Of a DNA stretch of 64,000 nt, positions 8,859-10,349 are shown piece after piece (positions within the stretch are counted from its first letter, which is position 1; every line of letters begins with the position of its first letter). The DNA comes from Sulfuriroseicoccus oceanibius. Lineage in GTDB: Bacteria > Verrucomicrobiota > Verrucomicrobiia > Verrucomicrobiales > SLCJ01. The notes under the pieces were generated by a model, which saw nothing but the letters and a program-made list of their open reading frames with translations, was not told the DNA's origin and did not search any database. Both the position numbers and the translations under genes were made by a program. The stretch covers positions 186,001-250,000 of the forward strand of contig NZ_CP066776.1 in the NCBI RefSeq assembly GCF_010681825.2. The letters are read 5' to 3'.

Positions 8859-10349
8859 TCACAACAACGCGCCCCACACCTTGCCATCGCGCATCGCCTG
8901 CCGGAACTCCGCGGCCAACTTCCGGTGCTGCTCCACCTTCTCCGCGCCCATCCGGTCGAGATGGCTCACCATCATCCGCATCCGGTACTGGCTCTCGAAG
9001 AACACACGATGATCCGCCACAAAGCTCCAGTACAGAGCATCCCACACCGCGCACCATTCGCCCTTTTTGAAGTCCGACATCTTGAGCACGTAGTTCGAGC
9101 CCGAGATATACGGCTTGGTCACCATCGACCCGCCATCACTGAACTGACTCATCCCGTACACATTCGGCACCATCACCCAGTCATAGGCATCCACGAACAT
9201 GTCCATAAACCAGCGGTAGACCTCGTGCGGATGGATCCGCAGCAACAACATGAAGTTCCCCAAAATCATCAACCGCTCGATGTGGTGGGCGTAACCTTCG
9301 CGCTCGACCTTCTCCAACACATAATCCACCGGATCGATCCCCGTCTTCCAATTCAGAATCGACTGTGGCATCGGCTCCTCGAACTGCCAAAAGTTCGCAC
9401 TGCGCATCCCGCGCCCATGTCGCAGATACACAATCGCCACAAACTCACGCCACCCGATGATCTGGCGCACAAACCCTTCCAGATCGTTGATCGGCACCTC
9501 CTTCTTCTCCGCAAACTCCAACGTCCGCTCAACCACCAGCCCCGGCGTGAGCAGTCCTATGTTGAGCATCGGAGTGAGCACGCTGTGAAAGAGAAAATCC
9601 CCGCGTGTGCTCAGCGCGTCCTCGTACGTCCCAAACCCGGCAAAGCGTTGGTCGAGAAACCGCTCGAGCCACTCCGCCGCCGCATCATGCGTGATGGGAT
9701 ACCTGAACCCATCAGCACCTCCCACCACGTCCCCTTGTTCCTCCACCCACGCCAGCGCCTCGTCGAGGAATGACTGCTCGGATCTGCCATACTTCGCCCG
9801 GGGAGCATCCGGCACAGCCACCTTCTTCGGAAGCTTTTTCCGATTATCAGCGTCAAAGCTCCACTGCCCACCTGCTGGCTGACCGTCCCCATCCACCAGC
9901 ACCTTCATCCGCTTGCGCTGTGCCTCGTAGAACGTCTTCATGAACGGCTTCTTGCCATCGCCGAAGAACGCATCACTCCACTCACGAGGTGTCACGAAGC
10001 CCGGCGTATCCAGCCACTCGAGATCCACCCCACGCTCATCCGCCCAACTCGTGAGCTTGCGTTCCAACTCATCATCCACCACGCGGCACAGCCGTACGCG
10101 GTTGACCTTCTGATCCACCTCATCCAAGCCCGCCACGCATTCCACCTCCATCCCGCGCTTCTCAACCCGTTGTGCGTACGCCAAACCCGCCGCCTTTAAC
10201 AACAACACCCGCTTGGCATGCGGCGTCATCCGCCACTCGCCCTCCCCCCAATACAGCAGCGGCTCATCCACCAACACGCACCGATCCACGCCCTCGAGCG
10301 CCGGATGGTCGTCGAACAATTGATGCGGAAATACCAGGCCAACACGCAT
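8859..10349 (-). CDS. Photolyase-related protein (FeS-BCP/PhrB-like) lacking the Fe-S cysteines
   Basis: A 496-residue flavoprotein of the deoxyribodipyrimidine-photolyase-related group, whose characterised bacterial members are (6-4) photolyases with FAD, a lumazine antenna and a 4Fe-4S cluster. The N terminus MRVGLVFPHQLF and the FAD-domain blocks (FLDQRFAGFGTYEDALS, NIGLLTPGLVVE, GWREFVAIVYL, YDWVMVPNVYGMSQFSDGG, KPYISGSNYVLKMSDF) are clear. In members I know, KMSDY is followed by a C-x2-C and a later C-P-F cluster segment; here it reads KKGEWCAVWDALYWSF with one Cys. The cluster is therefore probably absent. It may still repair UV damage or act as a light sensor. Confidence 0.85.
   Translation of the reverse strand: MRVGLVFPHQLFDDHPALEGVDRCVLVDEPLLYWGEGEWRMTPHAKRVLLLKAAGLAYAQRVEKRGMEVECVAGLDEVDQKVNRVRLCRVVDDELERKLTSWADERGVDLEWLDTPGFVTPREWSDAFFGDGKKPFMKTFYEAQRKRMKVLVDGDGQPAGGQWSFDADNRKKLPKKVAVPDAPRAKYGRSEQSFLDEALAWVEEQGDVVGGADGFRYPITHDAAAEWLERFLDQRFAGFGTYEDALSTRGDFLFHSVLTPMLNIGLLTPGLVVERTLEFAEKKEVPINDLEGFVRQIIGWREFVAIVYLRHGRGMRSANFWQFEEPMPQSILNWKTGIDPVDYVLEKVEREGYAHHIERLMILGNFMLLLRIHPHEVYRWFMDMFVDAYDWVMVPNVYGMSQFSDGGSMVTKPYISGSNYVLKMSDFKKGEWCAVWDALYWSFVADHRVFFESQYRMRMMVSHLDRMGAEKVEQHRKLAAEFRQAMRDGKVWGALL

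Follow-up and report, generated by a model that had tools for sequence, protein, structure and literature searches.

A putative (6-4) photolyase of Sulfuriroseicoccus oceanibius lacks all four iron–sulfur cluster cysteines and joins a known cluster-free branch of the prokaryotic family

We analysed a stretch of 64,000 nucleotides from the Sulfuriroseicoccus oceanibius genome (positions 186,001 to 250,000 of contig NZ_CP066776.1; hereafter the window), in which an intact open reading frame at 8859..10349 starts with ATG on the minus strand and encodes a protein of 496 aa. The source genome is 3.5 Mb long and forms a single contig. The gene is flanked by genes for a Glu/Leu/Phe/Val dehydrogenase and a GH20 hydrolase, and neither a link to repair nor a photolyase neighbour was seen among these flanking genes. 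In Pfam, the product matched PF04244 (DPRP; E = 2.5e-39), with the N-terminal DPRP domain at aa 5-217 (9699..10337), and showed a weak match to PF03441 (FAD_binding_7; 1.8e-5, under the curated cut-off) that covers aa 298-392 of the FAD-binding domain (9174..9458). No further Pfam domain was found in the protein, and an NCBIfam search returned no family. Eight distinct PDB sequences were matched at E values up to 0.001, namely PhrB, CryB and other prokaryotic photolyases of the same family, and the nearest named relative was that of the verrucomicrobium Rubritalea marina (59% identity). Reading frame, Pfam and PDB matches, alignment and tree agree on a cluster-free gene of the prokaryotic (6-4) photolyase type. 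All features below lie on the minus strand and are given in window coordinates.

The AlphaFold2 model of the protein, built from a 38-row alignment, reached a pLDDT of 91.7 and a pTM of 0.92. VIA-align of this model identified PhrB (4DJA) as the closest structure, with a Z score of 47.1 and an rmsd of 1.9 Å over 475 residues. Ranks 1-10 were all entries of the PhrB family (Z 40.4-47.1, rmsd 1.9-2.1 Å), the next entry had a Z score of 29.6, and Foldseek likewise ranked the PhrB family first. A predicted fold in common with the PhrB family does not establish function.

To locate the cluster ligands we used a MAFFT alignment of 179 rows numbered on PhrB (4DJA). The original prediction had described a PhrB-family protein without Fe-S cysteines and with a single cysteine in a loop shorter by about ten residues, which the PF04244 match and the alignment confirmed. 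PhrB C350 is replaced by Pro340, within the segment G337..P340..D342 (9324..9341), C438 and C441 fall in a 10-residue gap, and C454 is replaced by Ala434, so that none of the four cluster cysteines is present and no other cysteine of the protein occupies their positions. Between MSD and ALYW the protein has 10 residues fewer than PhrB, and this stretch includes the shortened former cluster loop D426-W441 (9027..9074), which contains W432, W436 and D437. In the Caulobacter enzyme, C437 and C440 are reported on a surface-exposed loop joining two helices (PMC12082625); they correspond to PhrB C438 and C441, and both fall in the 10 missing residues. It is extremely improbable that a cluster or another metal is still held by other ligands, for example C433 together with non-cysteine residues: C433, the lone cysteine of the loop, does lie one position ahead of the fourth ligand column and is cysteine in 84 of the 132 cluster-free rows, but it is not invariant, the remaining three cysteines (24, 71 and 88) are all in the DPRP stretch, and the CxxC loop itself is gone.

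Over the 179 rows the cluster cysteines followed an all-or-none pattern, with four in 47 rows, none in 132 and an intermediate number in 0. The cluster-free rows break down into 42 from the order of S. oceanibius, another 10 from the rest of its phylum and 80 taken from a collection of named genomes. These 80 do not sample genomes at random, because they were retrieved by means of a cluster-free profile, and the figure of 132 therefore depends on the query chosen. The 47 cluster rows comprise 3 PDB chains and 44 loci. Dropped from these counts were two classical photolyases below 100 bits (L097, L098), two duplicates of the gene studied here (L001, L103) and five loci below the match threshold (L002, L099, L100, L102, L104). 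Pfam gave 133 matches in 132 Bacteroidota genomes, and the 30 with the highest scores, additional to the 179 rows, all had four cysteines. As 132 rows from several phyla have none of the four cysteines, chance or sequencing error can be ruled out as the source of the pattern.

The alignment further revealed a six-residue signature of the cluster-free rows, consisting of G337, P340, D342, W432, W436 and D437. It was complete in 130/132 rows, and its residues were found singly in 132, 131, 132, 132, 132 and 131 of the 132 rows, respectively. The same letters occurred 1, 0, 0, 0, 0 and 0 times in the 47 cluster rows, which hold at these columns mostly D/E (31), C (47), R (31), a D-led mixture (D 16), F (44) and T/N (47). 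Because PhrB mutants with single cluster ligands removed were insoluble or not expressed (PMC4619345), we infer a packing role for the signature residues. The shortened loop with its fixed Pro/Trp/Trp/Asp set would take the place of the [4Fe-4S] cluster and, as judged from sequence, is the probable means by which the C-terminal helical part is held together without metal.

We built a tree of 107 rows thinned from the 179, with cluster and loop columns removed, using a quick method with SH-aLRT support and no bootstrap. A single branch (SH-aLRT 100) divided 75 cluster-free from 32 cluster-type rows, which upholds the idea that proteins of this kind form a subgroup. The accompanying idea of a loss, as opposed to original absence, did not gain from outgroup rooting: with five classical photolyase-type rows as outgroup the stem was ~9.6 changes per column long, the root falling inside the cluster-free rows, by single rows and with weak support, making this rooting uninformative. 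The S. oceanibius protein paired with the Rubritalea marina row (SH-aLRT 100). Two Prochlorococcus rows (L111, L147) lay on the cluster-free side, in one starred 28-row set together with the S. oceanibius protein; of the other 26 rows of this set, 25 belonged to the order or class of S. oceanibius or came from named Verrucomicrobiota, and the last was a record with the title Vibrio cholerae. The best Prochlorococcus loci were 45% identical to the S. oceanibius protein.

With none of C350, C438, C441 and C454, and on the other side of the SH-aLRT 100 branch, the protein falls outside FeS-BCP. It shares with subgroup M the absence of all four cysteines in a protein of the DPRP family, the grouping with the Prochlorococcus rows, which are presumably orthologous to PromaPL, and the catalytic His and predicted Mg2+-binding Asp pair (H356, D166, D244). 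The cluster-free subgroup is already in print, and the protein is one more member: in a set of 110 prokaryotic 6-4 photolyases, the 20 assigned to subgroup M are reported without the four cysteines (PMC9178010), several orthologs miss them (PMC12082625), and so do most Phr2 (mBio 2022, PMC9426592). We further noticed that the nesting of the two Prochlorococcus rows in a set dominated by Verrucomicrobiota suggests horizontal acquisition of PromaPL. Separately, the record titled Vibrio cholerae strain 35D (L180) is of the cluster-free type, while the V. cholerae PDB entries 7ykn and 8a1h are labelled FeS-BCP; the name of this genome may be wrong.

Among 141 genomes of the own order, 42 carried the cluster-free type, 45 the cluster type and 0 both, as expected if both types do the same job. 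All 42 cluster-free genomes were typed by sequence, as were 16 of the 45 cluster-type genomes (17 rows), the rest being typed by identity. The mutual exclusion gave a Fisher p of 4e-9, a value uncorrected for kinship and obtained with many draft genomes. Both types occur within one genus (g25): sequence typing of five genomes placed G063, G116 and G125 with one type and G108 and G122 with the other. In the phylum sample, a DPRP gene was found in 49/288 genomes, exactly one each, and in the Bacteroidota sample in 132/395 genomes, of which 131 had one and 1 had two of equal score. Two copies were also seen in one of 12 named genomes, that of Mucilaginibacter flavus (G396), and both were cluster-free (L187, L199).

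The residues linked to repair were retained throughout the cluster-free rows. H356 (9282..9284) aligns with PhrB H366, which is essential for (6-4) repair in PhrB (PMC4619345) and is kept in 131/132 rows. PhrB D179 and D254, kept in 132/132 and 131/132, align with D178 and D253 of the Caulobacter enzyme, predicted to bind Mg2+ (PMC12082625), and conservation was equally high at Y424 (132/132), Y430 (131/132) and W390 (132/132). From sequence and model we estimate a probability of about 80% that the gene encodes a light-driven, FAD-dependent photolyase for (6-4) photoproducts from the known cluster-free branch (subgroup M, PromaPL-like). In such an enzyme, the lesion would receive an electron from reduced FAD excited by light and a proton from H356, and D166 and D244 would form the Mg2+-binding pair. 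It is unlikely that the protein instead repairs CPD lesions, alone or besides (6-4) photoproducts, in the way suggested for picocyanobacterial Phr2. The missing cluster has been taken as a sign that most picocyanobacterial Phr2 may be CPD photolyases (PMC9426592), and lesion specificity is unreadable from the fold alone; however, the conserved His has been called a specific feature of (6-4) photolyases and of animal cryptochromes (PMC4619345), the Asp pair is likewise kept, and PromaPL is cited as a (6-4) photolyase by PMC9178010 and PMC9426592. A second gene, of the classical photolyase type (PF03441, 297.4 bits), lies elsewhere in the genome, and this too speaks against the CPD reading.

The electron chain differed from that of PhrB at several sites. 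At L332-N333-W334 (9348..9356), L332 occupies the position of the distal Trp342 of PhrB and W334 stands in place of Gly/Ala, each letter being found in 1/132 cluster-free rows. In these rows the distal column was mostly Tyr (89) or Trp (40), with two cases of Asp and a single Leu, that of S. oceanibius. The segment W380-F381..F385..M393 (9171..9212) covers the medial and proximal positions and the residue near FAD N5. At the Y391 column of PhrB, Phe was present in 131/132 cluster-free and 8/47 cluster rows, and at the E403 column Met was present in 131/132 and 4/47 rows, respectively. Met near N5 has been reported for 37/50 members of subgroups Chl, HC, Ac and M (PMC9178010). Phe at the Y391 position need not block the electron path, because the light-induced spectral change of PhrB Y391F resembles that of the wild type (PMC5887102). 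Nor need the absence of the cluster reroute electrons, as flow from cluster to FAD was judged unlikely in SePhrB, at ~16.8 Å and with no conceivable pathway (PMC9178010). The suggestion of another electron path thus stood in part: the known chain is altered, but some cluster rows have the Phe or the Met as well and rerouting is not required.

We regard as doubtful a scheme in which the six residues form a fixed plug at the former cluster site and W432 and W436, perhaps aided by the flavin reductase encoded near the gene in 9/80 relatives, contribute to reducing FAD in proteins with Phe for the proximal Tyr, the chain of S. oceanibius being further altered at L332 and W334. The portions of the literature on prokaryotic (6-4) photolyases covered here make no mention of a fixed replacement signature, of a mutually exclusive distribution in one order or genus, or of distal-Trp loss in S. 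oceanibius.

The same substitutions (L332, F381, F385, M393) could fit a cryptochrome-like photoreceptor that signals via light-driven FAD reduction and has lost repair, and CryB of the sister group combines repair and regulatory roles (PMC9178010). Every repair residue examined is kept, however, the 496 aa include no extra Pfam domain, and another photolyase-family gene lies near 24/80 relatives. The photoreceptor role that had been raised for the protein found no support in these results and is very unlikely.

The antenna side was also altered. The DMRL contacts D10, E37 and R108 of PhrB are replaced by H9, L32 and E94 in the DPRP domain, which sets the protein apart from FeS-BCP with a DMRL antenna. 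In the 132 cluster-free rows, the D10 column held His in 105 and Asn in 21, and Glu37 and Arg108 were each found in 0/132. A search of the genome (completeness 95.5%) for CofG, the one member of the 8-HDF pathway covered, gave a best score of 31.5 bits versus a cut-off of 213.35. A DMRL synthase match was present in the genome, which is uninformative on the antenna because the riboflavin pathway would supply one anyway.

We scanned the flanks of the 80 named cluster-free relatives by tblastn (E 1e-6), covering cluster-free loci only, with flanks of up to ~2.5 kb and at least 2 kb on both sides in 58/80. Another photolyase-family gene was found in the flanks of 24/80 and a flavin reductase in those of 9/80 (L126, L140, L154, L167, L168, L172, L174, L178, L184), 6 of which also had another photolyase-family gene. 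A flavin reductase beside a cluster-free photolyase could possibly be a dedicated electron supply. In Rubritalea marina a photolyase gene lies immediately downstream of the cluster-free gene and is co-directional with it, and in Oceanihabitans genes for a photolyase, a flavin reductase and the cluster-free photolyase stand in a row. Ten weaker neighbour matches (L109, L131, L137, L145, L147, L148, L152, L161, L164, L167) were examined, and all ten had PF03441 above the cut-off as their sole Pfam match, in open frames of 318-466 aa; such neighbours resemble the class named 'short photolyase-like' in PMC9178010. Fourteen Prochlorococcus-type loci had a DCC1-like gene beside the photolyase. One contig binned as Rhodobacteraceae (L113) carries beside its photolyase a DCC1 gene 96% identical to that of the Prochlorococcus row L111 and is probably misbinned. 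Thymidylate synthase, a thioesterase, an RsmB methyltransferase and others neighboured the gene in some relatives, and beyond photolyases, flavin reductase and the DCC1-like gene no consistent neighbours were seen among the relatives' flanks examined.

The role of the cluster in prokaryotic (6-4) photolyases has been called unknown (PMC12082625). Enzymes that naturally do without the cluster and carry a fixed motif in its place can reveal what makes it dispensable, and the all-or-none pattern together with one genus holding both types would permit comparison in near relatives. Compared with the FeS-BCP proteins PhrB (4DJA), Caulobacter (9HNK), CryB (3ZXS) and SePhrB (8IJY), the S. oceanibius protein has a similar predicted fold (Z 42.3-47.1), the His, the Asp pair and W390, whereas it has 0/4 ligands, a loop 10 residues shorter, and altered antenna contacts and proximal chain. 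With subgroup M and Prochlorococcus PromaPL it shares the absence of cluster cysteines and the Phe and Met that almost all cluster-free rows have at Y391 and E403, respectively; it differs in having Leu for Tyr/Trp at the distal site and Trp two residues on.
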